64,000 bases of DNA, taken from contig NC_092014.1 of the NCBI RefSeq assembly GCF_042242105.1, positions 2,102,374-2,166,373 on the forward strand, read 5' to 3'. Both the position numbers and the translations under genes were made by a program. This stretch comes from Pempheris klunzingeri (taxonomy: Eukaryota; Chordata; Actinopteri; Acropomatiformes; Pempheridae). Shown here piece by piece: positions 11,189-39,190 of this stretch (positions are counted from its first letter, which is position 1; the number at the start of each line of letters is the position of its first letter). A model generated the notes under the pieces. The model saw only the letters and a program-made list of their open reading frames with translations, had not been told where the DNA came from and made no database searches.

Positions 11189-11194
11189 TTTAAT
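11189..11194 (-). terminator. Polyadenylation signal ATTAAA of deaminase gene A
   Basis: On the minus strand the sequence reads TGATTAAAGCTTTGCTCAGCATCC-like. Near-identical blocks lie downstream of genes B (18943), C (24551) and D (35528), always several hundred bases after the stop codon. This is good evidence for homologous 3' ends; here it implies a 3' UTR of about 1 kb. Confidence 0.7.
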
Positions 11195-11434
11195 CAGAAA
11201 GAACAGAACATCACTTTAACATAAGTGTACAGGACAATAATATAAGCACCAAAGATACTGAGGAACCGTTCCTTCTTCCTTCCTTCTGTTCAGTAAAGTA
11301 GATAAAGAGTGCTACTGGAAATTGAAATGGATTTAAATCATAATTATGTTATTAATTTTGGCAAACGTTCTCCTGCGTCAGGGTAACATTGAATACTGAT
11401 TTTTGGAAAGGGTTGGCAATGTCAATGTTTAAAT

Positions 11435-11550
11435 ACTCATCTCATTTTTTATACCGCTTATCCGTGAGGGTCACGAGGGATTTGAACCCGGGACCTTCTT
11501 GCTGTGAGGCAACAGTGCTGACCACAGCACAGCCATGCTGCCCCTTGTTT
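11435..11550 (-). mobile_element. Degenerate tRNA-derived SINE-like fragment
   Basis: The minus strand reads GGGGCAGCATGG, an A-box-like TGGTCAGCACTG, a B-box-like GGGTTCAAATCCC, then GGATAAGCGGTATA. This order matches a common fish tRNA-derived repeat with an internal deletion. It lies within the 3' UTR of gene A. Relatives lie at 44497-44815 and 50870-50990. Confidence 0.55.
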
Positions 11551-12171
11551 AAATACAACAAGGGAAATTTAGAATTTAGAGGCACAAACACCCCAATGAC
11601 TTTGTGTAGTTTTTTTAAATGAACAGTTTGCTGACCACAATCAATCATTTCACGAGCGTCAGTGAGTTTTTAAAGCATAAAGCTGGAGACAATCGCTACT
11701 TTTGTTAATGCTAACAAATCCCACGAAAAGATCAGTGCCGTGTTGGTGTGTCTCTAAATACTTTTCTGACCTCCCCACCCTTACTGAGGTACCTGTGGCT
11801 CTAATATAAACTTTCTGGTGAGTATTTGGCACAGTGGGTGTGGGTCAAAATAAAATACAGCAATGGAACTCTATGGCACTGAGGAATAAGCTTTGTACAC
11901 ACACACAGTGTTTGTAGTACTGTGGTTATATTCCTTGTTGGTTTTGGTCTTTTTCAAGAGATTTGTGGACAATAAGAAAAATATAAAAATCCCCGCCTTA
12001 TCCTTTTGAATGCTTAAAGATGGACCAGTTCCAAAATTCAAGTGATATATAAAAAAAAAAAAAAGTCAAATGCCGGAGAAGGGAGACATTAAATCTATGG
12101 GAAGAAGAGAAAAGAAGTCATTCTTATTAAGCCGAAGTGATTGTTTTGATCAGATTCTCAGGATCTTACAG

Positions 12172-13788
12172 TTATTTTCCCCATCCCCACTTCCTGCCCC
12201 GCTTTTTCCCTCCGCCACCTATGAGTCTTATACCCTTGCCCCTTCTTTTACCTTTACGCTTGCGCCCTTTTCTACCCTTGCGTCGCCCTTTTTGCTTGCG
12301 CCCTTTCTTAGCCACGCCACCTCTTCCACCCTTGCGTCGCCCTCTTTGCTTGCGCCCTTTCTTAGCCACGCCACCTTTTCCGCCCTTGCGTCGCCCTCTT
12401 TGCTTGCGCCCTTTCTTAGCCACGCCACCTCTTCCACCCTTGCGTCGCCCTCTTTCCTTGCGCCCTTTCTTAGCCACGCCACCTTTTCTACCCTTGCGTC
12501 GCCCTCTTTGCTTGCGCCCTTTCTTAGCCACGCCACCTCTTCCGCCCTTGCGTCGCCCTCTTTGCTTGCGCCCTTTCTTAGCCACGCCACCTCCCGTATT
12601 CCTGCAGCCTTGTTGAAGACCGCCACCTCCTCTGCACTTGCTCAGTCGTCCATCCATCTCGTTCCCTCCCATTCCCTCCCACATGCCTGTGGCCACCTCG
12701 TTACCCATTCCTTCGCCTGGTGCGATTTCTTCGCCCGTGAATGTGTCTTGAGGGACTGTGCTTATTTCCTCGTCTACGTCCTGCTCGTGATTTGCCGGGC
12801 CGGTGTTTGTAACACATGAGGTCGTGACACCTTCGCCTGAGGAGCAGCTGGTGCACTGGAAAGGATCATCTCCAGGTTTATAACAACGAAATATGTTATC
12901 CAGCCCAAGTTTCGAAATCAATGAAGTATTGACTACCTCAGTAAACACAAACGCATAACCTCTCCAGTTCTGAATGACATTGTTAAAGCCGGCAGGGATG
13001 TCGGCCTCATTTGTTTTTGTACACGTTGGGCCACACGGGGATTCTTTTGAGTAGATGATGAGGAAGTTACCCTGACTGCTTGTAACGAGGGGCTGTATGT
13101 TTTCTAGAACACGTGACAGCGCTCCTGACTGTGCTGCTGCCACCATCCTGGTGCCGCGGTACACTTGACCCCCTGAAACCGTTTGCGTCACCGTGTCTGC
13201 TGGGTCGTCCTGAAAGACTTGCTGAAGACTGTCTGGGTCTTGGTTCTGGGGGACGTTAACGGCCAGACTGAAGGTGTCACCAAGTGCATACCTGCCAAAG
13301 GAACACATTACATGACTTTTTAATGAGTATCTTGGTTCAGGCAATTTAAGGTATGTGATGGTAGTATAGATAGACAGTTTGAATTGTGGAAGTGTGAATA
13401 CACAGGTAAACTGAGGACAAATTCAGATTGATTGATTTAAAGGCCCTGTGGTGCCCAAGAGAAAGTCTACATTGCCAGAGAAGACATTTAGCAACAGGCA
13501 TGGCAAATGCACGCTGAGTTTGAGATCCCATTGATGAAAACTAGGGTCAAGGGAAGATATGACGGTGAATTTTATTTGAATTTAGGAGTTAAGAGTTCAG
13601 AGTCACAGATAACAATTGGTCCAGCTGTAGTAGTAATACTGGTAAAAAGACAGAAGAGAGCTACAGACTCACTCATCTTTGATGCCCTCTACAGTACTTG
13701 CGAGCCAGTCCTGGTTCACAGCAGCCAGTCCGCTTCCAGCAGACAGGAAGAAGGCAAAAGCCACAGCCATCCAGCACAGGCCAGCCAT
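12172..13788 (-). CDS. Gene A: secreted AID/APOBEC-like (SNAD-type) protein, catalytic residues lost, cationic repeat tail
   Basis: Two coding exons, 13788-13673 (116 nt) and 13291-12172 (1120 nt), joined in phase 2, give 411 aa. Residues 1-22 form a signal peptide (MAGLCWMAVAFAFFLSAGSG). The deaminase-like domain begins around FSLAVNVP. The Cys half of the zinc site is intact (SPCGPTC, P124, C125, C129), but the position of the HAE motif reads GAL (residues 95-97) with the same 26-residue spacing as gene C. The nucleophile-activating His and Glu are therefore gone, so deamination is unlikely. A conserved four-cysteine motif follows (FRCY...QCTSC...SC). The tail has six 18-residue units (GGVAKKGRKQRGRRKGGR and variants), then more KR-rich sequence. 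I infer a secreted nucleic-acid or membrane-binding pseudo-enzyme. Confidence 0.82.
12268..12591 (-). repeat. 54-bp coding minisatellite, six copies (basic tail of gene A)
   Basis: Six tandem 54-nt units in frame encode GGVAKKGRKQRGRRKGGR-type 18-mers, with small changes (E for Q, K for R, RK for GR). The unit is a multiple of three, so copy number can change without a frameshift. The high GC and repetition also keep several other frames open on both strands; those are shadows. Confidence 0.93.
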
Positions 13789-14993
13789 CTGCACACAGAT
13801 CAGGTTTAATAATAGAGTGGTTTTAACAAAAGGCATTGTCTCTAAGCACAGAATGAACAACAGCAATAAAAACAACTAAACCAAGTGCACAACAGACTTA
13901 AAGTGTAAATTGTAAAGAAACACCTTAAAGTTGTAGTTACAGGAGTCGAGCAGATTGAATCATTAATTTGGTTTATATAATAAAAAATCTACATATTAAG
14001 GAATTAACTTGACATTTAAGGTTGAAACAGTGTCCCGTTATCATGCATAGTTCAAATATTGCTTTTCTGAATGTTATAGACGCGTCCAAAAGCTGGACCT
14101 GGATAGCTGGATGGCAGAAGCTCACTCTCTCTCAAAGGCTGTACGCTGTGTTATTGAAGGCATTGAAGATTGAGCAGCACTTAATCATTCATTTTTTGTC
14201 AATATGCGTGTATTTTGTTATTTGAAGTTGCTAAAAGTAATTTCATGCGCTCTGTAAATATTTAAATGCAAATGTTGCGCTGGAAAATTTAGAGGATTTG
14301 TTTACAACTTCATGAAAGGCTTAAAGGCAGCAAGTTAGTGTCTAGTTTTGATTCTCCACAGTGCCAAAAGTGATGCTCGTACTGAAAACACCCAACAGGG
14401 ACTCTACAGATCAATTCGCCGAACACTGAACATTTTCTTACATTATACAGTTGGCTGACTTGGAGGCTGATGTGAAGATGCAACCTCGGGCTTTAGCTTT
14501 GTAGTACCTCAGTTCTTTACCTGTGCATATAATGAGATGAAATCAAAGAAGAAGAAAAATACAATTAAGAAAATGCACAGGTACGTCTGTAGAGAGAGCC
14601 CCCCCCCCCCGATATTAAAGTTAGAGACAGCAAACATACATTTTCTAAATACGAGAGAAGAAAAGAAAGGGAAATAAAGCACAATAACATATTTGCACTG
14701 CTTTCATACGCTGCTGTCATACCTTATTTGTTAAGTACGTTTAAGGTACTTTAAGATCTTTTTTTAAAGGTGTGAAATGAGGAGTGACTGTGAGGTGAAG
14801 CAGCAACGCTAGATAGGCAGACCTAGTTACAAAGAAAGTGCAAAGTGAAATGGGAGGTGAATTGCCGAGAACTCGAAATACAAACGTTTACCTGCATGTG
14901 TCTGAGGTTTACTAATGTCAAATGAATATAGGAAAATATGCTCGGCATTTCAAAAAACGAGGAATGAAAAGTGACACGTTTTATTGTACGTAC

Positions 14994-15105
14994 CTACTTT
15001 GTAGAGGAGACTCTTCCGGTTATCTTATCAGTGTTTGAAGGGATGTTGCTGCTGCAGTAAACACAGTCAGGAGGAAGTGAAGTTTTTTTTTTTTTTTTTT
15101 TTTTA
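14994..15105 (-). promoter_or_regulatory. Promoter and first (5' UTR) exon of gene A
   Basis: On the minus strand a CACTTCCTCCTGACTGTG block leads to a Pur/Pyr block ending TTTACTGCAGCAG (15050-15080). An exon then ends at the donor ACAAAGTAG|GTACG (14994). Equivalent blocks precede genes B, C and D. At the TATA position a 20-nt poly-T/A tract (about 15083-15104) replaces the CTATAAA-like box of its paralogues. Confidence 0.55.
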
Positions 15106-18100
15106 GAGGACATGGCCAATATGGCATCATACCCTTATTTGAACATTTCTTTCAAAATGTAGGAGGAGGAAGATTAGAAAAAGGGGTAAAGCTATTATCT
15201 CAGCAGAATATGAGAAGTTAATGGGGTTTATGGTGCAGTTAGTAAAGGGGCTCTTAGATTTTGATGAAATGTATACAAAACCACAAGTAGAGTAACAATT
15301 TTATGTTATGAGAGAAAAAAAAGACATTTTTCCACATGCATCAGGTGCAATAAGATGGTCTAAAATCTAAAATCGGCTCGTGAACTGTCAAATCTGTTTT
15401 GTGGATTTACTTACTACTTAGTACAGAGCACAGGCAGCGCATTGACTGTGTAGAATAGAATAGAATGCTTTTTATTGTCATTATACAACGTATAACTAGT
15501 ATAATGTGTTTTTTAGTCTGTATGCTCTTGCCTTGATGCACCCGTAGCGCCTGCCAGAGGGCAACAGGTCAGACATGTGGAAACCAGGGTGTGAGCTGTC
15601 CTTGATGATATCTTAGGTTAATAACTGTGTACGTGACAAATAAAGGTCTTGAAATAAAAATGACGTGCAGACAGAACTTATGTGCAGGTTGCAGCTACAG
15701 TTTTTAGTTTTAAGTGTCCTACATTTATCTGCTGCATTGATATTACTAAACTTGCTGAAAGCAGCCTCTCTAATCTTTAAAGTAAATCATTAAAGAGCAC
15801 ACTCAGACATCAATGCAGTACAATAAAGAAATCACCTGGAAAGCTCGCGCTGCAGTCCACAGCATGAAATGTGAATGTTTTTCTAATGAAAAAAATGGCG
15901 AATGGCAAACATTTTTCCATTGTTTCATGGCACAATGTGTCGGACAGACGTATGTCCCTGTTGTCTGCATACTGCATGGAAAGTACACACTTTGTGAGGG
16001 CAGCTGCAGTACGTACTATAGTAAAAGGTAGTAAAAAGTATGCGATTTGGAACAAAGGGACCGTTTATTCTTTTTCTCTTGCGTTTTTCTTTTTGCGTTA
16101 TTCACACACTCGTAGAGCGAGTCGTCCATCAAATGGTGGTGTCGCGTGTGTCCTCGGGGCAAGACACTGAAACCCAGCTTGTTCCTGAGGCGTAGCTTCA
16201 GTGTGTGAAAGAATAATCCCCCCTCAGCCTGGATACCTCCTGTATGGATGATATATAAACTGCTGAATGTGGTGTAAAAGCGCTATGAGTGGTCAAAACG
16301 ACAAGAAAGGCATTTTACAAGTACAGTCCATTTTCCTTTTGACCATATAGGAGCCTGGGGGTGTGATCAATTGTTTCCCAGGCGTTAGTTGGATCCCTGG
16401 CTATTTCCAGGGCAGTCGAGGTGGCATATCAGGAGTAGAGTGGTAGAGAGATGGCAGATAGACAGAACTCCTGTCTTGCTGTCCGGGCTAACCAGCACAG
16501 CCTAACAATAGCTATGGTGGAGGAACAAAAATGAATATGAAATTTAAAAGTCGTGCATATTTTGGGTCAAATTGCTCTCAAAAGTTTTGGGGAAATTGTG
16601 AGTGTGCATTTTTCTTTTCTACACGTTCCATAGACCAAACTCTTAAGCGATTAATAGCAAAAATGATCTGCAGATAAACGATATTTAAAATAATCTTTAG
16701 TTGCTGCATTAAACTTTTCCTAACGGCTAATGAAACCAGCTGTGACCTTTGTGTCAAAGAGGTTGTGCCTTTTGTGCAGCAGCCAAACAAAAACTCAGCG
16801 GTCAACAAAGTGTCACAGTGATCCCATGCAGCACCTCTGATATCTTCGTCATCAAGAGATAAGATGAAGACTTCTGCCTGGTGGATGACTCACAGATTCA
16901 CCTTCCTGTTTTCACACTGCCTGTTCATCAAAACCACAAAAACAACCCGGAGGCCTGAGCTTAGACATACTTTACTAGTCTCAAAAGAAGACGTAGTTTA
17001 TAAATTTATAAACCAGAATTTACCAGCCCAGGCCAGGATTAGATTAGATTAGATTAGATACAGGATAAAAATGTTTTACAGATGATATATACAGATTCGG
17101 TGCTATGAACATACTATACTGCATAACATGTGTATACATATATGGATGGATATAGACATAATACACAGATTAGATTAGAATATACAGATTAAAGTGCAAT
17201 GAACATATTAAACTAGTGGACATAATATATGGATATATGGAGCAAGTATTGGTCATGATTAGGGTTTGGAGATTTGGCTGAACCCAGCCTTTATTTCTGA
17301 CTTTTAGCTCACACTGTTTGTCGTTACACACAAAACCTAATTTTTAGTGTGCGAACGTAGTTTTTCTAAAGGGTTTAACTTGAGAGAGGTCAGAGAGCTG
17401 CCGAGCTGTTGCGACAGAATATCTAACTCTTCATTATGACTTGAGTGTTATCAGCACAGAAGCAGCAGGAACAACAGTCACCCTCACAGCAGAAGTAAAT
17501 GGTGTGTTTCACAACAGATGTGCACACACACACACACACCTTTTCTCACATCTGTTATTGTGTCTTTTCCTGGATATAATAAAATGATCAGTTTGGCTGT
17601 ATTTTATTTATTTTCACGGTTGGCAGTATTCATGATAATAAAAATGAAGGAGTGTCACAGTTGTCTCACACTTTGGATAAAGAGTTTCCAAATTCCCCAT
17701 TTGGCCGGATACGAGCACCGACACTAATCTTGGGTCTGGAAGGACCTACAGTGGACAGTGGGTCTGGAAGGGAAACTGACTCTTGGCTGTTTGGCAGAAG
17801 CAAATGGCAGCTTTAGTGTTTCCAGCAGACGTTGTGCTGCCCTTCAGTTCCCAGGCACAACCTTACGGGGCTTTTCCTCAGCTCCAGGCTCTCTGCGTTT
17901 GTGTCATTTGCCTTTTTTTTAACGGTCATTCCCTTGAGTATTTAACTTGTTCGTTGTATGATAGATTTAATTTAGAAGCCTCTCAGAAAGCCTCTGTCTT
18001 GTGTTGTCGAGGATGTTTGCGTTTCATGGTGTTTTAGATGTCTGTACGTCAGCGCTTCTGGAGTAACAAGGGGTATAAACATGTATATCAAAAAGAGGCC

Positions 18101-18140
18101 AGATGTGGTGTGTAAATTCTGTTGTGTGTTAGAATTGGTG
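15106..18140. other. Intergenic between genes A and B, dispersed repeats only
   Basis: No gene recognised. About 16090-16340 matches a common fish dispersed repeat (GGGGCAAGACACTGAAACCC ... GTGTAAAAGCGCTATGAG). A LINE-tail-like TTTTTATTGTCATTATAC occurs near 15470, (GATTA)n near 17040-17060, and a short (CA)n near 17522-17537. Confidence 0.4.
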
Positions 18141-18149
18141 CCATATACA

Positions 18150-18620
18150 GTGAGGGAAATAATTATTTGATCCCCTGCTAGTTTTGTAAGTTTACCCCCT
18201 TATAAAGACATGAACAGTCCATAATTTTTATGGTAGGTTTATTTTAACAGAGAGAGACAGAATATGAAGAAAAAATCCAGAAAAAAACATTAAATAAAGG
18301 TTATAAATTCATTTGTATTTGAGTGAATTAAGTATTTGATCCTCAAGCAAAACATGACTCAGTACTTGGTGGAGAAACACTTGTTGGCAAACACAGAGAC
18401 GTGTCAGACGTTTCTTGTAGTTGGTCACCAGGTTTGCACACAACTCAGGAGGGATTTTAGTTACAGATGCTCTCCAAACCCTGAAGGTTTGGAGGCTGTC
18501 GCTTGGCAACTCGAAGTTTCAGCTCCCTCCACAGATTTTCTATGGGATTAAGGTCCGGAGACTGGCCAGGCCACTCCAGGACCTTACTGTGCTTCCTCCT
18601 GAGCCACTCCTTTGCAGCAT
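18150..18620 (-). mobile_element. Truncated Tc1-like transposon with transposase C-terminal remnant
   Basis: Starts with the Tc1-family terminal sequence CAGTGAGGGAAATAATTATT. On the minus strand the region encodes a decayed transposase C terminus, including KIPPELCANLVTNYKKRL, a typical Tc1 ending. The N-terminal part and the other terminus are missing, so it is a dead fragment. Lies just downstream of gene B. Confidence 0.75.
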
Positions 18621-18942
18621 CACTGGCTGATGTTAATATAATATATTATTAGTATATAATGTGTGGCAGAGCCATGACATGAGATGAAGCACTTTTGGAA
18701 ACATTTTAAGTACAGGTTAAATTTTTGAGACTAGCAAAACCTTCAGTCTTGCACCATGCCTCTATCTGAAAATTCAAATTCATTTATTCATTTAAAAATT
18801 GAAGAAGAGGGAGCAAGATATTAGATATATGTTATCTTTAAAATGCTGTTTTGCCTACAGGATCCAAACTGTGAAATGACAGCTGTTATGAAGAGACACT
18901 TGAATGACACACAGACAGAATAGATTGGATGCTGAGCTAAGC

Positions 18943-18948
18943 TTTAAT
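18943..18948 (-). terminator. Polyadenylation signal ATTAAA of deaminase gene B
   Basis: Minus-strand TGATTAAAGCTTAGCTCAGC, the counterpart of the 3' block after gene A, about 450 nt past the gene B stop codon. Confidence 0.7.
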
Positions 18949-19393
18949 CAGAAAGAACAGAACATCAGAGGATTTGGTAATACTTTACAGAAGTATGGTA
19001 CACAGTGATATGAGTACCGTAAACACTCATCACGATTTACATCAAACTTCTTTACTTTAGTTAATGAATTTGAAACAAAACAATTTCCTCCTTACACATT
19101 CATGGACCAAATTGTGTATCACAGGGTATCAGAAACTGATCAGAACACTGCAAGTAAGAAAACATCGTCGTCAATTTGAAAACTCGTTGAGAAAACGCAC
19201 TGCAAATACAGAAACTGAACACAATACAGATCCCATAACCTCTATAAACACATACTTGCGTATGAGTGCAGGACAAGGGACAAGGGACAGGACTTTGATC
19301 CACTTTGATCTGATTTATTGGCTTGCCTTCATATGCAGATGTCTGCTTATAGAGATGTCCGTTCAATGTCTGTTACACCGGAAATCGTCTTCA

Positions 19394-21656
19394 TCACACG
19401 ATACCTGATGTGCCCAAATACTGCAGACAGGTCGGCAAAATCAGAGGGCAGACAACACAGCACAGCGCACACACACCAGCACAAACCAGACAACACCTTC
19501 TTGCTCTCTGGTTTGGGCCACTGCTACAAGCCTGTCTGCTGCCACTTTGTGAGGAGGAAACACATTCTCCTTCATTAGTTTGTCCCTTTTTTTTGCCCTT
19601 ACGACGCCTTCCTCTGCCACCCTGGCCTCCTCCTGTATTACTGCTGACTTCTGTATTAGGGCCCTCAATGCCACCTTGGGTGGAAGAAACATCTACATTA
19701 GTATTTCCCTTTTTTTTGCCCTTGCGACGCCTTCGTCTGCCACCCTGAGTTCCTGCATTACTTCCCACATTTGTATTAGGGTATTCAGTGTCACTCTCTG
19801 AGGAGGAAAAACTTTCACTTTGCATTATATTTTTCCTGTTCTGACCCCTGCCGCGGCTTTTTCGGCCAACCTCATGCCAGCTGCCACTGCTACCCTGACG
19901 TTGTCTGATATTCCTGTCAGCTTCTGTATTACGGCCCTCAGTGTCACTCAGACTAGGCAGTGAGGGGGACTTTCTTCTGCCACGCTGAGGCTGCGTCAAC
20001 GAAGTGGATGGCAAGTTGTTGCTGGTACCAAATGGTACGTTGTCTGTAACACAATAGTCTGGAACACGGCCATTATCAGAGCACGTTGCGCACTGCACTG
20101 GGTTTCCTCTCCTACAACGGTATATGTTGGTCGCACCAACCGATCCCCCAAGACGCTCAAGGGCTTCACGATGGACTTCCGGTGTTATGGCTGGACCGCT
20201 GCGGGGTTGGAATATATCACTAAACACAACGGCATGGTTGCGCCAGTTCGTAATCTCTCTTATACTTTGGAGAATACTCCAGTGACCTCCTATCCTTGTG
20301 CATCTGTTACTACACGGGGTAGCGCGAACGTAGAAAACCAGCAGATCGTTAGGGTTACGATTCGTGACCAAGGTGTTAAAGTTCTGCAGAATACGGTACT
20401 CTGCATGATCAGCTCTACCATTTTGAACTGCATCAACACACTGTGGTGAAGCCCTACCACTCCTTAACATCCTCCCTAGAGCATCCCATGAAAGAGGCTG
20501 TCCACCACATTTGCGCACAACATCACCCCATTGCACAGGTTCATTAGGACACTGAGTCAGAACATTGTCCCATCTCAGGACTGTGGCTTCAACCACCCTT
20601 GCACTGGTGTACACTCGACAATTATCCACCTCATGCCTCACTTGGCCGCTGTCGTCAGTGACTTGACTGATGTCAAAAACCTTTCTTTCATTGTATGGGA
20701 TGCTGACGGCCACACTGAACATTGGCGGTCTGTCAAAAGAAGCACACACACAAAATCTAAACTAAAAGTTGTCATTCAAAACAACAATGCAGTTAATTGA
20801 AGTTAGCTGGACCAAACCAAACTAAACCAAACTGTGGACGTCACTCACATTCTGCCATTTTGCGTTGGTGTAAACCTGCAATAGGAAACGGATACAAAAT
20901 GTCACTGGTGTGTTTGATCGTTTCATACAAAACAGACGTTCGGAGAGTTTAATAGATGGATGGATGCACTGATCATTGAATGGACACAAACAGGCTGGAG
21001 ATTAGAAAAAGATGATCAACACACAACAGCCCATCGGATTATATTAAAGATGTATAAATAAAGATTTAGACTTGGAAAAACGTTGTGAAATGGAATTACA
21101 AAGGCAACTTGACTATAGTTTGTCATGTTTACTGATTATTATGTTTTAATAAATGTATTGTGTCATTGAAATGTCACAATACATGAAGCAGATGGTAAAC
21201 ATTTCTGCCTCGTTTCACTCTGTTTGTTATAGACGTGGCTACAAGTAAGGTTATCATATAGTTTTTGTTTGGTTTTAGTAAATGTTTGTAACTTTGCACA
21301 CATAAAAAAACAGCATAAAGCCAGAGAATAGAGGCAGAACCAATGTGACAGGAACCCCCCCCCACAAAGGAAGAAAACACTGAAATATATATGTATAAAA
21401 TGTATATCTTATTTTTACACAGTTCTGACCTGAAAGGCCAAAGCACACACTATGAAGAGCTCCCTATCTATTATGTGAAGGATAATTAAATTTGAACATC
21501 AAAATAAGGAATAAGGAAGTTTTCCTCTGAGTCAACTCACCTGTTCAACATCTGACCTACAATTTCAGAAAGTTCATTCTGGTTCACAGCAGACACACCG
21601 TTCCCAGCAGAGAGCAACAAGGCCAGCGTTACAGTCATCCAGCATAGGACGGCCAT
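19394..21656 (-). CDS. Gene B: secreted AID/APOBEC-like (SNAD-type) deaminase with basic repeats and hydrophobic C terminus
   Basis: Three coding exons, 21656-21541 (116 nt), microexon 20875-20849 (27 nt) and 20729-19394 (1336 nt), all split in phase 2, give 492 aa. The signal peptide is MAVLCWMTVTLALLLSAGNG. The active-site signature is complete: H156-A-E158, then 27 residues to P186-C187-x3-C191 (TPCSNRC), the AID/APOBEC pattern. A 49-residue insert with three cysteines precedes the HAE helix, as in gene D. The four-cysteine motif follows (YRC...QCATC...YC). A long Ser/Arg-rich region has two copies of RRRRKGKKKG. Residues 460-483 are a hydrophobic segment with eight cysteines, only nine residues from the end, suggesting a membrane or GPI anchor. 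Expected activity: extracellular cytidine or related deaminase; the substrate is unknown. Confidence 0.84.
20849..20875 (-). CDS. 27-nt in-frame microexon of gene B
   Basis: Acceptor TTGCAG|GTTTACACC and donor AGAAT|GTGAGTG flank nine codons. Spliced in phase 2 it adds RFTPTQNGRI between the signal exon and the deaminase exon. It aligns with the 36-nt microexon of gene D (FRPSYLGSNGRR; shared F-x-P ... NGR). Skipping it keeps the frame. It counts as coding sequence within gene B. Confidence 0.7.
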
Positions 21657-23134: not shown

Positions 23135-23139
23135 GGAGA

Positions 23140-23815
23140 GCCTGAAGGCCAAACCCTCTGAGTGGCACCATTTCCTTATTTGACCGTGTCCTTAAGAAAT
23201 TGTGTAAGTAGTTGAAAGACATCCTGCAGTTTGATTCAGGAAGTTGATAATATTGCATGTACCTGTCATTACTGTTGATATGTAACCCCGACTCGTAACC
23301 TTTGGAGGCCTGCTTATGGTTGACAAAATGTTCAAGAAGGGCATTTTGGGTAGACATAGGTTTAATCCTTATTATTTTCAATTATAATCATATATTGTCT
23401 CCTGTGGTGTACCCCAAGGCTCCATGCTGGGGCCCCGCTTTGTTTTCCTGTGTCATTGCTGCACTGACAGAACGCAGCTATGCTTATCTTTAAAACCGGA
23501 CCTTTAGTTTCTTTGAAGTTGTCTTAAGGATGTCAAATGCTGGACAGCAATTTTTTTTTTAGTTTAATTTTTTAGTTTACTTGAGGTCCTTATCATGAGT
23601 TGTGAAAATAAAGTAAATGAAGCCCTGAAGTTTCCAGTATGTAAAAGGCCCTGGCTGGTTAACTCTTTGAAGAATCTTTGGTACTTAAAGGTTCCTGTGG
23701 TGTAACAAGAGCTCAATTTCCATTCAGTGTTCAGAGCACACTGTTAGTCACCAAAGCCTAATGAACTTGTTACCGAGTCAATCTTTTGAAGTATTTGAAA
23801 ACTACTGAAAACTGG
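23140..23815. other. Intergenic between genes B and C
   Basis: No gene or clear mobile element recognised; sequence is AT-rich with short homopolymers. Confidence 0.4.
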
Positions 23816-23818
23816 TTC

Positions 23819-24195
23819 CTATGGATCCTGGTCCTGGTCCTGCTGATGTGGTTCTCCATCAGTCAATGGATGTGCATCTGTCCAAGGCTCCAGCCTGTCC
23901 GTCCTTGGGAGCTGGATCTCTCCTTCACTGTGGTGCTCCCGGAGGTTTCTCTTTTCCCACTGGGTTTTTTGAGTTTTTCCTTCCCGAAGAAGGAGGGTCA
24001 TAAAGGGCAGGTGATGCCTCGGACTGATCCACCGGACTGATCCATTGGCCTCATCGACTGCTGGACTCTTTATTAGATTGTTTGTTCGCTTACATTTCTT
24101 GTTTATTTCAATGAACTTTGTAAAGCACTGTGAGACAACTCTGTTGTGATATTGGGCTATACAAATTAAATTGATTGATTGATTGATTGATTGAT
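23819..24195. repeat. Dispersed LINE-tail-like repeat, copy 1
   Basis: Starts with ATGGATCCTGGTCCTGGTCC and ends with TTGGGCTATACAAATTAAAT plus (TTGA)n, a typical fish non-LTR 3' tail. A near-identical copy lies at about 31980-32345 in the same orientation. Together they flank gene C and the pseudogene fragment. Confidence 0.75.
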
Positions 24196-27468: not shown

Positions 27469-28114
27469 CTAAAACACAACTACAACAGAAATACACAAAA
27501 AGGGCAGGTGTGTTCATCAACTTTGCTTTTTCTCACACACTTGTATGAAAACATTCATTCAAGGATGCTTCGAATCAGCCAAAGATATAAATACCTGGCG
27601 GAGGAGGAGTGTTAATAATGCTGATATTAATAACCACCACTAACGCAAATGGAGCATCCCACTGCCGCTGCTTCACACAGTGTGGCTTTTATTGTGAAGG
27701 AGTCACAGGAAATGCGCTCGGCACTTTGGTTAGTTTTGACCTGACATTGTTGTCAAAGCTGCAATATAAACGGCAGCGGCAGCCGAATTAAAATATAACT
27801 GTATAACTACTATACAAATAGATAATTAAAATGATTATTGTCTGAAATAATTGTTTTCATAGTTCATATTTCAGTAGGTTAAGTTATTACGCAAAACATA
27901 TTGCGCTTCAAATCATTAATAGTGTCACATTTTTGATAAAAATTCAGTTCCTGCAATTTCTGTTTTCTGTTCAATCATCTAAAATAAAATAAGAAAAAAA
28001 ATAAAATAAGTTTGAAGTTTTTGTCTTATCTATCGTCTTGCTGTCACAGCCAAGAACTGCTGTGGTGAGATCGTGTTACTGTATAGTTTAGTTCAGTTTT
28101 CCATAAACATTTCA

Positions 28115-28630: not shown

Positions 28631-28709
28631 CGCAGTGCTCTTTAAAACAGAATACAACAGTTACAAATCTGAATTCTTAAGCTTTATTCCTGAATAGTGT
28701 AGCTCGTAC

Positions 28710-28810
28710 CTGCTTTGTTGGATGTCAGCTGGAGGCTCTGGGGTTGTTCCTCTCCTCAGTTTTCCTCTTCTGCAGTGAACACAGTCCGAAGGACGAGACA
28801 CTCTTATAGG
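28710..28810 (-). promoter_or_regulatory. Promoter and first (5' UTR) exon of gene C
   Basis: Minus-strand TATA box CCTATAAGAG (28801-28810), then CGGACTGTGTTCACTGCAGA about 30 bp downstream (the likely start region). The exon ends at AACAAAGCAG|GTACG (28710). It is the clearest member of the four paralogous promoters. Confidence 0.68.
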
Positions 28811-28829
28811 GGAGAACGAGACGGCCAAA

Positions 28830-29485
28830 CTGCACTCGACATTCAAATTCCTTTCATTGAATTTATTCAAAATGAAGAAGATTAACAGTGAGGGAAAAAA
28901 TAGCAGCTTCAGTGAAGCGGGACCGATGAAGTTAAAGCGACACGGCAGCTTCATTTGAGTATCTCATGAGAGTAGATTAGTTTCATGCTAACTGCTGACA
29001 CTACAGCCAAACTAAACAGCAATGGTTTCATTTATTCATGTGGTTTTTGTGAAGCGATAGTGTCGTGTTGCGATTATACAACAGTTACCAACAGAATAAA
29101 AGAAGCAGCCAAAATGGATTCACATTGTGGAGTTCACAGTTCACTCCAAAAATAGAAAAACTGACTATTAACTGAAAAAAACAGTCAGGTCAGTGGACCC
29201 CTATGTAATTATACTTAGCTTACCACTCCATTAAATAGGCCGACCCTAAGTAACATCCTGGCAACAGAGAACAAATCTATTTAAATGAAAACATTTGCTT
29301 ATTGGTTCTCCTGAGAGAAAATAACATGAAATGAATAGCCTTTGTTAGTGACAAGTGATTAAACTTTGAGCTTAAACTATTGGCTTTCTATTATGATTGT
29401 TCCTGTGATAGCTTGAAAAGTGATTGTACTCTCCTGAGAAAATGTAATGCCTATCCGTGCTGTCATGCTGATTTGAGCACGTTAC
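28830..29485. other. Intergenic upstream of gene C
   Basis: AT-rich, no gene or well-defined element recognised. Confidence 0.35.
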
Positions 29486-29488
29486 ATA

Positions 29489-30185
29489 CACTACTCACTA
29501 AAAGTCAGGGATATTCAGCTTTCAGGATGAACCTAAAATGCTTTATAACCTTTCCAGGTGAACTTAATGTGACCTTCTCTAAACCTTTGAATGCACATGT
29601 CCAACTGTTCAGTGTCTCAGTACTTTCTGCACCAGCTGCTGTTCTCTAACAAGAAGCTTAACAGCAACATTCACAACAGGTTTGATCCATGAATCCACCA
29701 ATACATTTCCTGCTTCAGTTAGAATTGGTATTTAAACAGTCCTCCTCATCCTGCTGTTCACATTCTGACATCATGAGACCAAGACGACACCTAACAGTTG
29801 ATCAGCAGCACCTCAACACTGGAGGCTTCAAACAGGAAGTCCTCAGACGGAGGTGTTCACTGAGCTTAGAGGGTCACAGAGTGTCATCAGGAGGTTGGAA
29901 CAGTGATACAGAGACTGGAAGAGTCACAGAAAGGAGAGGAGTGGACATCCTTTGGCCACGTCCCAATTTATTGAGGCACTGAAAATGTTTTGTTGTGGTA
30001 TACCTACCACTGTTGGTAGATTTTCTTTCAATAAACTGTTTAAGATGAAGAAATCACCAGTGTATGCTTCTACTTAAATGTCCTACTCTCATGATATAAT
30101 ATCACTGTAGCATTCACTTTTTACATTTTCCATAAATTTCACCTGAAAGTCGAATATCCCTGACTTTCTGTGAGTAGTCTGTGTC
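29489..30185. mobile_element. Non-autonomous DNA transposon with terminal inverted repeats, copy 1
   Basis: Ends CACTACTCACTAAAAGTCAG and, inverted, CTGACTTTCTGTGAGTAGTC bound about 700 bp. It carries a short plus-strand open frame (containing MRPRRHLTVDQQHLNTGG) that does not look like a full transposase. A second copy, inverted and about 70 bp shorter inside, lies at 45168-45789 in the cadherin gene. Probably a Tc1/mariner-type derivative; family not certain. Confidence 0.7.
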
Positions 30186-30189
30186 TAGT

Positions 30190-31390: not shown

Positions 31391-31399
31391 CCATCGCCA

Positions 31400-31705
31400 C
31401 ATGTGATTTATCCGTCCGAAAATGACCTCACAATGAGTGTTGCTTGAATATTTTTTGACACATGGGGAGACCTGAGCAACAATTCGTTATCATTCTCATG
31501 ACGACTTCTTAACGCCCTGTCCGCCACACTGCACACGATCAGCTCCTCTGTTGGGCCAGTTCTGAACTTTGGCTGCGACCACCCCGTTGCCCATAAACAC
31601 CTCTTCATTGTTGATCTTAATCTGCACATTGTCACCAGGGTGACTTCCAAAGACTTGCTGAAAGATATCCTTAATCTTATGGTTCTGGTTGTCAAGATAT
31701 AGGGA
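31400..31705 (-). pseudogene. Pseudogene P: broken SNAD-type deaminase copy
   Basis: A minus-strand frame reads DNQNHKIKDIFQQVF, GDNVQ, EEVFMGNGVVAAK, which aligns with gene A (SLQQVF, DTVTQ, GQVYRGTRMVAA). It then hits a stop. After a frame change the sequence HENDNELLL and SPHVSKN corresponds to the strand leading into SPCxxxC, with both metal-binding cysteines replaced. No signal exon was found upstream, and repeats (31830-32345) plus a Tc1 element (32471-34016) occupy that side. It is an old, non-functional member of the array. Confidence 0.72.
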
Positions 31706-31829
31706 AACAGATACAGTTCAATCAACAGTGGTAGAGATGATGCTGGAATACACACAAATGGACAATGGAGAGACCATCATGTTTGGAAATCAAGAGAGAA
31801 TTAAGATTCTTCAAACATGTATCAGTCGA

Positions 31830-32015
31830 TCTGTGGATCCTGTGGATCCTGTGGGTCCTGGTCCTGGCCCTGCTGATGTGGTTCTCTGGTTCCTGTGGGT
31901 CCTGGTCCCAGTCCCGCTGATGTGGTTCTCTGGTTCCCGTGGATCCTGGTCCTGGTTCTGCTGATGTGGTTCCCTGGTTCCTATGGATCCTGGTCCTGGT
32001 CCCACTGATGTGGTT
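31830..32015. repeat. Minisatellite of about 44-bp units
   Basis: About four imperfect copies of a unit containing CCTGGTCCTG, CTGATGTGGTTCTC and TGGTTCC run directly into dispersed repeat copy 2. It appears to be an expansion of that element's own 5' segment. Confidence 0.75.
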
Positions 32016-32345
32016 CTCCATCAGTCAATGGATGTGCGTCTGTCCAAGGCTACAGCCTGTCCGTCTTTGGGAGCTGGATCTCTCCTTCACTGTGGTGCTC
32101 CCGGAGGTTTCTCTTTTCCCACTGGGTTTTTTGAGTTTTTCCTTCCCGAAGAAGGAGGGTCATAAAGGGCAGGTGATGCCTCGGACTGATCCACCGGACT
32201 GATCCATTGGCCTCATCGACTGCTGGACTCTTTATTAGATTGTTTGTTCGCTCACACTTCTTGTTTATTTCAGTGAACTTTGTAAAGCACTCTGAGACAC
32301 TCTGTTGTGATATTGGGCTATACAAAATAAATTGAATTGAATTGA
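31980..32345. repeat. Dispersed LINE-tail-like repeat, copy 2
   Basis: Near-identical to 23819-24195, in the same orientation, and also ending in TTGGGCTATACAAAATAAAT. The pair forms direct repeats around gene C. Confidence 0.75.
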
Positions 32346-32470
32346 AAAGAAACCCAACAAGAACAAAGAAGTGTGTTGTAGGTTGTTTGATATATGGATG
32401 TGTAAAGGAGTAACATAAGTTGACCACTGAGTGGCAGCTTTGTACCATTTACTCTGTTTGACCTGTACTA

Positions 32471-34016
32471 CAGTCGTGGCCAAAAGTTTTGAGAATGACA
32501 CAAATATTAATTTTCACAAAGTCTGCTGCTTCAGTTTTCATAATGGCAATTTGCATATACTCCAGAATGTTATGAGGAGTGATCGGCTCAACTGCAATTA
32601 ATTGCAAAGCCCCTCTTTGCCTTGAAAATGAACTTAATCCCCAAGCGAACATTTCCGCTGCATTTCAGCCCTGCCACAAAAGGACCAGCTAACATCATTT
32701 CAATGATTCCTCCGTTAACACAGGTGTGGGTGTTGATGAGGACAAGGCTGGAGATCAATCTGTCATGATTGAGTTAGAATAACAGACTGGACACTTTAAA
32801 AGGAGGATGGTGCTTGACATCATTGTTCCTCTTCTGTTAACCATGGTTACCTGCAAGGAAACGCGTGCAGTCATCATTGCATTGCACAAAAAGGGCCTAA
32901 CAGGGAAGTTTATAGCAGCTAGTAAGATTGCACCTCAGTCAACCATCTATCGGATTATCAAGAACTTCAAGGAGAGAGGTTCAATTGTTTCCAAACAGGC
33001 TCCAGGGCGCCCAAGGAAGTCCAGCAAGCGCCAGGACCGTCTCCTAAAGTTGTTTCAGCTGCGGGATCGGGCCACCACCAGTGCAGAGCTTGCTCAGGAA
33101 TGGCAGCAGGCAGGTGTGAGTGCATCTGCACGCACAGTGAGGCGAAGACTTTTGGAGGAAGGCCTGGTGTCAAGAAGGGCAGCAAAGAAGCCACTTCTCT
33201 CCAGAAAAAACAGACTGATATTCTGCAAAAGGTACAGGGATTGCACTGCTGAGGACTGGGGTAAAGTCATTTTCTCTGATGAATCGCCTTTCCGATTGTT
33301 TGGGGCATCTGGAAAAAAGCTTGTTCGGAGAAGACGAGGTGAGCGCTACCATCAGTCCTGTCTCATGCCAACAGTAAAGCATCCTGAGACCATTCATGTG
33401 TGGGGTTGCTTCTCAGTCAAGGGAGTGGGCTCTCTCACAATCTTGCCTAAAAACACAGCCATGAATAAAGAATGGTACCAGAACGTCCTCCGAGAGCAAC
33501 TTCTCCCAACCATCCAAGAGCAGTTTGGTGATGAACAATGCATGATGGAGCACCTTGGCTAAAGCAAAAGTAATAACTAAATGGCTTGTGCAACAAAACA
33601 TAAAGATTTTGGGTCCATGGCCAGGAAACTCCCCAGATCTTAATCCCATTGAGAACTTGTGGTCAATCCTCAAGAGGCGGGTGGACAAACAAAAACCCAC
33701 AAATTCTGACAAACTCCAAACATTGATTATGCAAGAATGGACTGCCATCAGTCAGGATTTGGTCCAGAAGTTGATTGACAGCATGCCAGGGAGAATTGCA
33801 GAGGTCTTGACAAAGAAGGGTCAACACTGCAAATATTGACTTGTTGCATGAACTCAGTGTAATTATCAATTGTCAGATTTTGATACTTATGAAATGCTTG
33901 TAATTATATTTCAGTATACCATAGAAACATCTGACAAAAACACCTAAAAACCCTGAAGCAGCAGACTTTGTGAAAATTAATATTTGTGTCATTCTCAAAA
34001 CTTTTGGCCACGACTG
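32471..34016 (+). mobile_element. Tc1-like transposon with intact inverted ends
   Basis: Flanked by TA dinucleotides (32469-32470 and 34017-34018). The outermost about 63 bp, beginning CAGTCGTGGCCAAAAGTTTT, are an exact inverted repeat, so insertion is recent. The single transposase gene inside is broken by a small deletion (see the pseudogene entry). Confidence 0.93.
32807..33839 (+). pseudogene. Tc1 transposase, frameshifted
   Basis: The first frame (32807-33562, 251 codons) has the paired helix-turn-helix DNA-binding region (IYRIIKNFKERGSI, PGRPRKSS) and the first catalytic Asp in FSDESPFRLFG. It then runs out of frame at about 33545-33562. The second frame (from 33555) continues with [20 protein letters not shown], including the catalytic Glu, and ends GQHCKY. 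The break falls at the second catalytic Asp region and looks like a deletion of about 10 nt between short direct repeats. The element cannot make an active transposase. Confidence 0.9.
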
Positions 34017-34019
34017 TAG

Positions 34020-35520
34020 ACTCAGTAGTTTTGAAGTGTCTTAACATTTGATTGCCAATTTTGTTGAACTTCATTTCATAGAAAAACAAACAAATGCATT
34101 TTTGCTGAAAAAGTAACCGTGAATACCAAGCGAGAACCTATAGTGGCTTTAAATTGTAAGTTCAACCCTCCATTTGTCAGAAAACAAAATGGTATTCCTC
34201 CTCTTTTTTCTTCTTTGTCTTTTTCATCCTACCAAATTCAAGCTGTCAACATAACAACGCAGCTTCTGTAGAAACATGGCGGTGTAGGTTTGAATTCTTG
34301 AATCATTGGTCCAGACCCGCTCTTTATGGAAAGCGTCTTAAGATAACACTGCCATGAATTGGCACTATATAAGTTGATTTGATTGATTGAACACGGTGCA
34401 CTCTTTGGACGAGGACCCACGAAAACACAATGACTGTTACAGTTATAATATTATACAACAAGTAGCTCCAACCAAGCGATCTGATTGGTCAACTAGTACC
34501 AACAAATCAGTGTTTCTACCTGTGGTTTTCACTCAGTTTGGGAAATCCCTCCATCTCTAGAAAGCATCAGCTCAGCTCGTCAGCAGGGACTAGTTATCAT
34601 CTCTGTTGCTAGGGGCGTTACTAAGGGCCAGCGCTAAGCTAGGTTTCATTATATAGGAGTCTACTGACGGGACTGATCGCTTTCCAGGTGTTAGTCAGAG
34701 CCCCATGTGGCTCCGTGGAGACAGATGCTACACTGGCAAGTTTTTTTTGCATTTTGAGAACGAATTGCGCCACAACATGAACCACATTTTAATTACAAAC
34801 AAATCACAAAAAGTAAGGAAATTTGTGTTTGGTAGATTTTTTTTTCGTTGTTGTAACAGTGCGTCTTGGCAATAAATCTTATACCGTTGGAAAGCCTGTT
34901 TATTTCCCTTTTAACATGCATTTGTGGGATGAGCAGCAGAGCTGAGTATGTTGGTTGTGCCCATGAAAAATTTGATAAATCTTCTTTGCCAAATGTCAAA
35001 CAGCTTATTCTGTTATTGACTCTGCGATGTTTATATTCTATTTTGTTAGTAACCGTCGTATAATCGCAATGTGACACTCGAGGGTGAGCTTTACCGTCAT
35101 CATTGGCTTGTCAGTGATGCCGAGGTCCGTTAGCATCGTTAGCATCACTGTATCCTGTAGCGATGCCAATTTGTCAATTATTACGGGCACATTACGGCAT
35201 CATGATAATTTACTGAAACATTAAGCATAATTTTCCGCATTTTGTCTGAGCTATTTTTTTCTTGATGTAAAACACAGTATCCTCAGTATCTTAGCGTTGT
35301 GCGGTCTTATATTGTAAGATTTAGCATAGTGTTGTGTAGTTGAATGTAATATTGTATCATGTGGTACAGTATATATGTGTGCAGGAGGTGTTTGGCCACA
35401 TCTCCCTTTAGACGGAGAAAAGCTCCGTTAGATAATTAAGTATAAGATGAGTCATTATTTTTGGCCTGCTGTGTAACAGATGTTCCCAAATGAAGACACA
35501 CAAAGACAGATGGATGCTGA
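34020..35520. other. Intergenic between the Tc1 element and gene D
   Basis: A LINE-tail-like end (GGCACTATATAAGTTGATTT plus GATTGATTGA) occurs near 34350-34390. No gene recognised. I looked here for a lost signal exon of pseudogene P and did not find one. Confidence 0.4.
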
Positions 35521-35527
35521 ACCAAGC

Positions 35528-35533
35528 TTTAAT
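35528..35533 (-). terminator. Polyadenylation signal ATTAAA of deaminase gene D
   Basis: Minus-strand TGATTAAAGCTTGGTTCAGC, matching the blocks of A and B, about 950 nt past the stop codon. Confidence 0.7.
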
Positions 35534-36481
35534 CAGAGAGAACAGAACAGAGAGAGTTCAGTGGCATACGTGAAGTGAATTCAGAGGGTACACTTTCATT
35601 TTTATCTAATTAGTATAATCATAGCATGAATCAAATCCAAAAGTGGTGTTTTATTTCTGACGGCTTTTCGCCACAGTGCCTGGCACCGGCTGGTCCTCCA
35701 GTTCACCTCTGACACCACTGTGGTGGAAGAAATTCCTCATTGTCCTAATTTTGTTTTAGCTCCTATCCAAAAGGGCCCACAGGCTCCTACTGCAGCTTTT
35801 GTACGTGTGACTGCTTCTTTAAGGGCTGGGCACTGAATGCTCTGTCAGATTCTAAATTTCTTTTTTTCTTGAATCAGATTTCATCCGGAGGTTTTGTATT
35901 GAGAGCTTAATTACGTCGACCCTCTGATGATGAATTCACACTATGTCCTGAACAACTCTGGGACACAAATGGGAGCCGTTAAATCAGCAGGAATGCTCAA
36001 GAGATTAGCATGCTTTTTTAAGCGTAAGGAATCTTTTACATCTCAGCTGCGTTTCATGGACTGCTGTGGATCAGAGCTCAGGGTCTAGCAGATCTGCAGG
36101 GACATGCACAGACATTTTAGAGTATTGCATAAGGTATGAGATTTTGAGAGGGAGTGTCAGTATAATAATCTTTCTTACCCTTGTGCCAAAACGATGGTAA
36201 CAACAAACCTTTTCTGTAACCTGAGGGTGGTCACAAGAGACTTACATCTTTCTACCCCAAGCCAGGGCCATGTTTTTCCTCCTGTGAGCGAAATTATTTT
36301 TTAAGAAGCTTTAAACACAGTAATAGAGTGTTTTTACTTAAAGATGCCCTGTGGAGTTTTCCTCTAAACAAACAACAATTTGAAACCTGCATAGTTTGAT
36401 CTAATACTCTGTACGCCCCCTGCAGATCTATTTGATCTGAATCACAGCTGTCCGTAGTACGTAGGTACCCCTCGCCAGCCC

Positions 36482-38662
36482 TCAGCCTGCATGGCTGGGA
36501 CCAGGTTGTGGTTCATCTAAGTAGCATTTGCGTGTAACTTGACCATCCGTGGAGCAGCTGGTACACTGTATCTGACCAGATGCTCCAGCACAACGGAATA
36601 TGTTCTCAAGACCGATCGACTGACCCAAGAGGTTCTGGTGTGACCCGAGCCTCTCCAGGGCTCCACGGAGATTGTCCTCAGGTATGTCTTTACCATCACG
36701 CGGCTTGAATACATTAGAAAACACAACGGCATAGTTATTCCAGTTCAGAATCTTAAGTATTTTATCGAGAATCCTCTTGTCATTGCCTTCGCTTGTGCAC
36801 CTTTTGTCACACGGGGAGGAGAGAATGTAGAAAAGCAGCAGGTCGTTGCTGTTATGATTGGTGAGCAAGGTGTCAAACTTCAGCAGAGTACGGTACTCTG
36901 CATGATCAGCTCTACCGGCATAAACTGCACCACGACACCGATCTGAAGTCTGTGCATTGTTCAACTTTGCCCCGAGAGCAGCCCATGTCAGAGGCTGTCC
37001 ACCGCATTTCTTCACAACATCATCCCATTGCACAAGTTCATTAGGACACTGATCCAAAACATTGTCCCATCTCAGGACTGTGGCCGCAGCCATCCTGCTG
37101 CTGGTGTACACTTCACAATTAAGAATACTGTTCCTCACTTGGTTGCTAACGTCAGTGACTTGACTGATGTCAAACATGCTTCTTTCACTGTTGTATGGGA
37201 TGCTGACAGCCACGCTGAACATGGGGTGTCTTCTGTCAAAGGAAACACACACAGTGTCAACCAGGTGTCATTTAAAACAGTGTAGGGATGCAGTTTCTCA
37301 CACAGCTTCATTCAGGAGGGGACAACGGGGTGATTTGAGCCAGTGGTCATGTGACTAAACATTTCTGAAGAGTCATCCATTAAACCCAATGATGGAGAAC
37401 TTTGTTTTGCCATTCAGTGTGATTTTTATGTTCAATGAATCATGAGTCTTACATCTGAACAATTAAAGAAACAGTTAAAGACACATATTAGTGTCAGATT
37501 TGAGCCAAATGGCCCAATATTATTTAAGTATTTGTTTCTGTCCAACTGACTCTTGTTGCGCTAGAAATCAGTCCTAACTCGGATTGATTTATTGGCTCCA
37601 TGGCATCATTACACTTCCTGTTTAAACACAGTTGAAATAGCCAATTTTCCACGTTTACACAATTTACTTTTACTAAGCTACTTAAGCCAAGAGACCAGTT
37701 TGTTTTGGAAAGTTATATTTGACAACTGTTTAGTGTAGACCTAAAGGGGAATCCCTTTCCCATCCTGAAATGTATGTTCACATTTTAGTTGGAGACATTA
37801 CTGTCACACTTGGCTCATCTCCCCCCACTCTCCCCCCACTTGATTCTGAATGGTCAATTACAACATCCTGTGGTCTGTTTCTGTAGAAAAGCCTGCTGCT
37901 GTGGAAGCTATGAATCAATAGAATAATTTTATCAAATCAATGTTATATGTCAAATGATTGATTTCTTTAGTAAGGAGTCTTGTAGTAAGTGGGATAATGT
38001 ACAGCGAACTGGTCGTTATTACAAAACTAATCCCTGCAGCCCTTAATTCTGAAATAAAGACCAAACTAAACTGTCGACGTCACTCACATGTTACCGTCTG
38101 AACATCAAATACAAGAAATTTAAAGTTTCATTATATTTGCTGAACTTTGGATGCAACTTTGTCTCGACGGTTGTCTTTTCTCTTTGCCATAAACACATTA
38201 TAACCATGATTTTTGAAAAGTTCCATACATGTAATGTTTACTTGATTACTTACTGACCTTCTGCCATTGCTGCCCAGGTAGCTTGGTCTAAATCTGCCAC
38301 AGGAAACAGACACAAAATGTTACTGGTGTGTTTGGACACAAACTGGCTGGACATTAGAAAGAGGCGATCAACACACAACAGCCCACTGGATTATATTAAC
38401 AATCAATCAATAAACATTTTTATCTACAGGATGTATCAGGGAATATTGACCATGTTTCGGTTAGTGGAGATGAAGATGGTCGACTGTCTGGGATTTATTA
38501 TCATTATAAGGAATGAGCAAGTCCTGGTGTGAGTAAGTTGACTCACCTGTTCAAAACCTGATTTACAATTCCTGCAAGTTGGTTCTGGTCCACAGCGGCC
38601 ACACGGGTCTCAGCAGAGAGCAGCAAGGCCAGCGGTACAAACACCCAGCACAGCACAGCCAT
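36482..38662 (-). CDS. Gene D: secreted AID/APOBEC-like (SNAD-type) deaminase
   Basis: Three coding exons, 38662-38547 (116 nt), microexon 38293-38258 (36 nt) and 37232-36482 (751 nt), all split in phase 2, give 300 aa. The signal peptide is MAVLCWVFVPLALLLSAETR. The active-site signature is complete: H161-A-E163, 27 residues, then P191-C192-x3-C196 (SPCDKRC). It shares with gene B the FSVAVSIPYN start, the 49-residue three-cysteine insert (with QCPNE and KCGGQPL) and the microexon, so B and D form one subgroup. The four-cysteine motif is FRCA...QCTSC...KC. It lacks the basic repeats and hydrophobic tail of B and ends in a short QPGPSHAG segment. Expected to be exported and enzymatically competent; the substrate is unknown. 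Confidence 0.85.
38258..38293 (-). CDS. 36-nt in-frame microexon of gene D
   Basis: Acceptor GTGGCAG|ATTTAG and donor CAGAAG|GTCAGTA bound twelve codons. Spliced in phase 2 they read RFRPSYLGSNGRR. It is three codons longer than its gene B counterpart and can be skipped without a frameshift. It counts as coding sequence within gene D. Confidence 0.7.
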
Positions 38663-39075
38663 CTGAGCACAGAGCAGCTTTATTTCATTTATAATTTTTT
38701 TTAAATGGCATCAGCATAGAGGATTAAAAGCAATAAGACCAAGTATGTTTTCGTAGCTGTTCAGTCTTTACATTTGATATTTAGGTTTTTAAATGACCTA
38801 AAATAAGCAACCCTTACTTGAAGCGGTGCTTTGATCTAAATGCAAACAACATTAATGTTGATTATGGAGATGCTGATTCCTTTCGTTTCATTTCATTTTA
38901 AACTGGTTTGGTGTCTCCAGCTTGAAAAACCTAAAAGTTCCAAACGTTTTCTTAAAATCACATTTTTACTCCATTGATAACTGCAGGGACAGCTAACCCC
39001 CGTCAGAGTGTCTTTGATAGGTAATAACTTGCTGTCAAAATAGATTATAAGAATTGAGAGCAGACAATCGGTTAC

Positions 39076-39190
39076 TTGCTTTGTTGGAGGGACGTCTGAT
39101 GGGTGCTGTTCACTTCTGTTTTCTTATGAGTGTTGGAGCAAAGGTGTCGTTGCAGTGAATAGAGAAGTACAGAAGTCTCTATTTTTATAG
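39076..39190 (-). promoter_or_regulatory. Promoter and first (5' UTR) exon of gene D
   Basis: Minus-strand TATA box CTATAAAAAT (39181-39190), then TTCACTGCAACGACACC about 30 bp downstream. The exon ends at CAACAAAGCAA|GTAACC (39076). Layout is the same as for A-C. Confidence 0.65.

Follow-up and report, generated by a model that had tools for sequence, protein, structure and literature searches.

Does the tandem array of predicted secreted deaminases in the fish Pempheris klunzingeri consist of working editing enzymes, or do some of its members act in another way? The array lies in a stretch of 64,000 nucleotides (the window, C3:2102374-2166373) of a 646-Mb genome in 439 contigs, with genes that suggest a bony fish, and all our genome searches were made in this one genome. 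Four genes, A to D, and a gene remnant, P, follow one another there head to tail on the minus strand. An earlier note, made from the letters of the DNA, had described them as four AID/APOBEC-like deaminase genes plus one pseudogene and had guessed at the SNAD family, a name reportedly given by Krishnan et al. in 2018 (PNAS). The explanation that we favour, with a probability of roughly 0.6, is that these genes encode secreted SNAD1 deaminases, the tailed ones of which would be held on polyanions by charge, and that gene A would bind without editing.

Assignment of the cluster to the SNAD1 family

Stop-to-stop exon frames were compared with Pfam by hmmscan, the SNAD1 profile (PF18744) having a cut-off of 25 bits. 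The second-exon frames of A, B, C and D matched this profile with E-values of 1.1e-5, 2.4e-12, 1.7e-21 and 4.5e-10 and with 26, 47.7, 77.6 and 40.2 bits, respectively; a fifth gene found elsewhere in the genome, E, reached 55.3 bits. Because all four genes of the window score above the cut-off, the match is not due to chance, and the guess of a SNAD family is thereby narrowed to SNAD1. Gene A is a marginal member, with 22.7 bits for its best stretch in the genome search and 29.3 bits when this stretch is taken with its neighbours. Three cysteines (170, 173 and 183 in the numbering of the C core) are invariant in A-D and occupy the same alignment columns in E. Judged from these sequences, the genes almost certainly belong to SNAD1.

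Related profiles of the same superfamily also matched. The SNAD2 cut-off (PF18745; 25 bits) was passed by C (32.9 bits) and B (25.2), with D just under it (24.8), and in all three genes the scores for SNAD2 and SNAD4 were below those for SNAD1. Cross-matches to SNAD4 (PF18750), NAD1, APOBEC2 and APOBEC_N were all under cut-off. A SNAD2 identity was considered and rejected: two of the eight rows of the genome search pass the SNAD2 cut-off, both inside the window (C and B), and each scores higher for SNAD1. Four of nine SNAD4 rows exceed their cut-off, and these lie outside the window, on contigs C11, C2 and C8. No match was returned by an NCBIfam scan of the four cores, PF14437 (a bacterial-type deaminase family) had two matches in the genome, neither inside the window, and a PDB sequence search with the core gave one match at E 0.43. 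The search for viral relatives yielded 26 stretches that fit a pattern, none of which was confirmed.

The rebuilt gene models have GT-AG introns, all in phase 2. They bear out the head-to-tail arrangement and a putative signal exon ending in phase 2 in each intact gene, as previously described, and add a third coding mini-exon in B (27 nt) and in D (36 nt) that the earlier note did not have. The ATG of the signal exon sits immediately 3' of a CAG acceptor in A, B, C, D and E, suggesting that an untranslated first exon lies upstream. The best N-terminal 19-residue segment has a hydropathy of 1.79 in A, 1.69 in B, 1.61 in C, 1.93 in D and 1.33 in E. The outer coordinates, 11189 and 39190, fall by eye on ATTAAA and on the word TATAAAAA.

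Catalytic site and the paralogue A

The zinc and proton-donor residues (HxE...PCxxxC) are complete in four genes, with 27 residues between HAE and PCxxxC in B, 26 in C, 27 in D and 22 in E. The counts for B, C and D match the spacing of 26-27 residues previously read in B, C and D, as well as the statement that A has the Cys half only. Gene A keeps PCGPTC and lacks HAE, the aligned residues being GAL; the loop before GAL is shortened, and an 18-residue gap follows VFTEV. Of the four deaminases first proposed, three (B, C and D) thus have a complete zinc site, whereas A is without the catalytic His and Glu and is for this reason predicted not to deaminate, if the assembly is correct.

The loss of these residues could also mean that A is dying. 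In the explanation that competes most directly with ours, this is an ordinary SNAD1 cluster, gene A has turned into a pseudogene only recently, and the tails described below are neutral repeat expansions tolerated past the last structural Cys. Fragment P shows that copies decay at this locus, a point in favour of such an explanation. Gene A, however, retains its splice sites, its signal exon, an intact frame of 411 codons and a short branch, which disfavours decay. In a tree built from the five cores, the branch of A (0.43) is shorter than those of C (0.59) and E (0.61); the grouping of C, B and D in this tree is supported at 67%. Its sequence features suggest that A is a SNAD1 homologue and more probably a pseudoenzyme than a gene in decay, and the competing explanation as a whole, although worth serious consideration, has the odds against it.

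Fragment P itself was found in the genome protein search at E 0.0019 and resembles A and C. A signal exon for it was looked for by tblastn and none was found, and a Pfam scan of P and of two signal-exon frames gave no match. With its three in-frame stops and lost zinc site, P was ruled out as a fifth working gene.

Charged C-terminal tails

Past the last conserved Cys, the predicted proteins continue for 208 residues in A (net charge +61), 213 in B (+21), 110 in E (+37) and 8 in D (0), and C ends without such residues. The long charged tails of A and B were absent from the earlier note. Their building blocks differ: the tail of A is made of 18-aa KKGRKQRGRRKGG-type units, six 54-bp units having been found, all in-frame (frame 0); that of E consists of RN/RS/RD hexamer-coded repeats, its DNA being a 48.5-copy array of the CAGGAA type; and that of B, with a Lys/Arg share of 16%, carries RRRKGKKKG patches. 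B also ends in a hydrophobic segment (hydropathy of 2.79 in a 19-residue window, over GT-rich DNA), which we presume could be a membrane or glycosylphosphatidylinositol signal.

Several of these properties would fit neutral expansions. The tail of A comes from a minisatellite and that of E from a hexanucleotide array, kinds of repeat that lengthen through slippage; C and D have no tail; and the repeat array of A also reads open on the other strand, which leaves its openness with little meaning. Against this, the coding frames of A and E are the most basic of the six: in E by far, and in A at +61, another frame reaching +57 but with 11 stops. Furthermore, none of 500 dinucleotide shuffles per tail reached the charge of A or of E, a control that is weak for repeats. 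In B, the coding frame (+21) is less basic than another frame that is full of stops (+26), and 169 of 500 shuffles reached the charge of the tail, i.e. it is no higher than base composition gives. From these frame and shuffle controls, the three tails are a fact, selection for their charge is a hypothesis, and B is of no help to it.

The distribution of charge in A invites another explanation, namely that the proteins are mainly cationic antimicrobials or carriers. The acidic core (-9) and linker (-10) of A would neutralise its basic end (the last 151 residues, +71, with 48% Lys/Arg), which might be released by a protease as in other host-defence precursors. Gene A codes for five sites of the furin-like motif RGRR, and gene B has R-x-[KR]-R at six places, both of which fit this proposal. 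On the other side, C and D are tail-less, C, D and E are without any R-x-[KR]-R site, and the zinc-site residues are retained in four of the five genes, and we consider a mainly cationic function improbable. A more speculative idea, which we hold to be rather unlikely, is that of a recurrent design: SNAD1 evolution may keep a basic C-terminal tail while swapping its sequence, and in A the tail may have outlived the enzyme, leaving a secreted, catalytically dead and strongly cationic binder.

An insert common to B and D

B and D share a Cys-containing insert of 58 residues, which in both sits immediately ahead of HAE. A genome search with the insert of D returned two matches, D and B themselves, and no donor copy. 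The pairwise ratio of nonsynonymous to synonymous substitutions (dN/dS) between B and D is 0.74, and the 56 columns lacking in A, C and E have a pN/pS of 1.05; by these ratios the B/D change is fast, which is not proof of positive selection. In the weak structural model of B, the insert is mostly helical, and residues 61-100 of the modelled stretch score best, in blocks with a predicted local distance difference test (pLDDT) of 65-79. A derivation from a segment of a STAND/NB-ARC-type nucleoside triphosphatase is hinted at by NB-ARC matches of the D insert (E 0.0063) and of the B insert (E 0.042). Their scores of 16.2 and 13.5 bits are nevertheless under the Pfam cut-off of 23.5, the genome search gave no donor, and the best PDB sequence match of the insert, a plant CNL protein, has an E-value of 0.31. 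We regard this origin as very improbable.

SNAD1 elsewhere in the genome

The genome search with PF18744 gave nine rows from ten candidates, and the five over cut-off are A, B, C, D and gene E on contig C13. With the C core as query, a whole-genome protein search gave six matches from eight candidates, namely A-E and P. Such searches take exons singly and score the best candidates only; thus, the count of SNAD1 genes is a lower bound. The flanks of E (9.9 kb per side) consist mostly of simple repeats and an N gap, and no neighbour gene was seen by eye, no profile search having been made there. The four weaker PF18744 rows (C20, C2, C21 and C4) are under cut-off and were rejected as further SNAD1 copies; those on C20 and C2 were inspected by eye, and no SNAD1 gene was found there.

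A separate observation concerns C6:24015920-24075645 (L019-L023), where five stretches, roughly 12-16 kb apart, have a noise-level SNAD2 match with a stop. The three that were inspected are near-identical, and the locus is a tandem array.

Proposed mode of action

Based on these findings, we postulate that B, C and D would be exported via the secretory pathway and would deaminate cytidine in nucleic acid, either extracellular or in taken-up pathogens. C-to-U activity of these three proteins is, in our view, reasonably probable. Their C-terminal Cys residues may form disulfides that stabilise the fold. The insert of B and D would adjoin the active site, in what we take from general knowledge to be the loop before the HAE helix, and may shift the choice of substrate. 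The cationic tails could keep the protein attached to polyanions (nucleic acid, glycans or a microbial surface), whereby its local dose or its uptake would rise; that the tails are such a tether is a tentative proposal, a little short of an even chance. Gene A would have given up editing and would work by binding, as a decoy or a cationic effector. That the cluster serves defence appears to us about evenly balanced.

Several results weigh against this explanation, among them the composition-level charge of the B tail given above. The activity of SNADs is stated as unknown in PMC11004436. Fold prediction gave poor models. For C, AlphaFold on four sequences reached a mean pLDDT of 52 and a predicted template-modelling score (pTM) of 0.56, and none of its 158 PDB matches at E <= 10 was significant at 0.001. 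The best 50 of these 158 include 12 APOBEC3 chains (best E 0.33, TM 0.21-0.29, from a low-confidence model), and the first rank is held by a GGDEF-EAL protein (E 0.23). For B (mean pLDDT 53, pTM 0.41), none of 568 matches at E <= 10 reached 0.001, and the best 50 of the 568 include 29 triosephosphate isomerase and two APOBEC matches, APOBEC3B at rank 2 and APOBEC1 at rank 4. The family assignment was made from the Pfam matches and not from fold prediction. The branch dN/dS of A, which we count against decay, is of limited weight. From three-way distances with 95% intervals, it was 0.26 (0.12-0.78) for A, beside 0.63 (0.18-4.52) for C and 0.28 (0.13-0.79) for E, the branch of A spanning the time before and after the loss of the site, with dS near saturation and wide intervals. 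The same method is unstable, giving for B 1.28 with C as outgroup or 0.34 with E, and for D a negative dS with E.

Relation to described SNAD genes

SNAD1 is reported to be universal in fish (PMC11004436) and is present in nurse-shark plasma (PMC9207270), and SNAD2 and SNAD3 are restricted to ray-finned fishes (PMC8201067). Carp has 13 SNAD1 genes, with the protein in blood and seminal plasma and expression that shifts with infection and temperature (PMC11004436); the developmental expression of the 13 genes has also been described (PMC13402138). Secretion and an immune role of the cluster, as we propose them, would agree with these papers on other fish (PMC11004436, PMC9207270).

The genes reported here resemble the described family in their domain, in HxE...PCxxxC (B, C, D and E), in the C-terminal Cys cluster, in the separate putative signal exon, in close-set paralogues and in rapid divergence. 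In zebrafish, three SNAD1 genes lie on chromosome 15 (42.04-42.09 Mb), and both these and the carp B15/A15 genes lie several within tens of kb and have 2-3 exons (PMC11004436), a likeness in layout. Neither the family nor its clustering is new, given that SNAD1 has been described before and that neighbouring SNAD1 genes have been published for zebrafish and carp (PMC11004436). Unlike the described members, A is without HxE, A, B and E have long basic tails, and B and D have the 58-aa insert. The absence of the zinc motif from two SNAD1 sequences has already been noted in PMC11004436. Word searches of the main texts of PMC11004436 and PMC13402138 gave no mention of charged tails, the word 'tail' being used a single time, for a tissue, and a remark on tails or inserts in the founding SNAD paper is possible.

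Neighbouring genes and repeats

The cluster was previously placed between commd1 and a cadherin gene, and Pfam domains identify both neighbours. Frames of commd1 match COMMD1_N (6.3e-19 and 2.2e-19) and COMM_domain (2.4e-4 and 0.0083, piecewise under its cut-off), and the cadherin gene matches the Cadherin profile (E 1.4e-52 and 8e-53). A search for RNA families in the window at gathering scores gave no match. Coordinates are collected in Table 1.

Table 1. Positions of the SNAD1 genes, their parts and the flanking genes (window coordinates unless a contig is named)
Feature	Position	Strand	Description
Gene A	13788-12172	-	Exons 13788-13673, 13291-12172 (two-exon model); 411 aa; SNAD1 homologue without HAE, acidic core, Lys/Arg-rich tail
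Minisatellite in A tail	12266..12593	-	54 bp x 6.1 (TRF); codes VAKKGRKQRGRRKGGRGG-type units
Gene B	21656-19394	-	Exons 21656-21541, 20875-20849, 20729-19394; 492 aa; intact HAE/PCxxxC, 58-aa insert, basic patches, hydrophobic Cys-rich C-terminus
Insert of B	20411..20584	-	58 aa, Cys-containing, directly before HAE; from alignments
Gene C	26733-25240	-	Exons 26733-26621, 25807-25240; 226 aa; minimal SNAD1, tail-less, intact zinc site
Fragment P	31705-31349	-	SNAD1 pseudogene, three in-frame stops, zinc site including HAE gone; from tblastn
Gene D	38662-36482	-	Exons 38662-38547, 38293-38258, 37232-36482; 300 aa; intact zinc site, 58-aa insert, tail-less
Insert of D	36908..37081	-	58 aa, 67% identical to B insert
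Gene E	L004 804-2373; C13:25.445 Mb, about 0.36 Mb from contig end		Further SNAD1 gene outside the window; Arg-rich hexanucleotide-coded tail
commd1	2354..8963	-	Downstream neighbour, same strand; three exon-bearing frames
Cadherin-repeat gene	46083..64000	+	Upstream neighbour; start by frame inspection; runs past window end

Repeats are found around these genes as well. In the commd1 region, a 21-bp x 81.7 minisatellite (2657-4344) lies between exon-bearing frames. Two 1-kb stretches of the cadherin gene (54136-55139 and 58355-59355) are 97.8% identical, which may stem from a recent duplication within the gene, from gene conversion or from an error of the assembly. Gene D is flanked by inverted, near-identical copies of an element (29483-30182 and 45167-45790; 98.7% and 93.6% in two pieces), and a Tc1-type transposase frame (32783-33562; HTH_Tnp_Tc3_2, E 3.9e-16) lies between P and D. 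Direct copies at 23812-24182 and 31974-32345 are 96.5% identical, one being beside P and the second adjoining a 44-bp x 4 tandem repeat.

Implications for the SNAD1 family

The value of this cluster lies in its tailed paralogue A, predicted to be catalytically dead, and in the repeated occurrence of tails. The five SNAD1 genes detected are a ready-made set in which editing and binding can be told apart: C is tail-less with an intact site, B and E are tailed, D has the insert without a tail, and A is tailed without the catalytic residues. If A is expressed, SNAD1 proteins would have a role that is independent of deamination.

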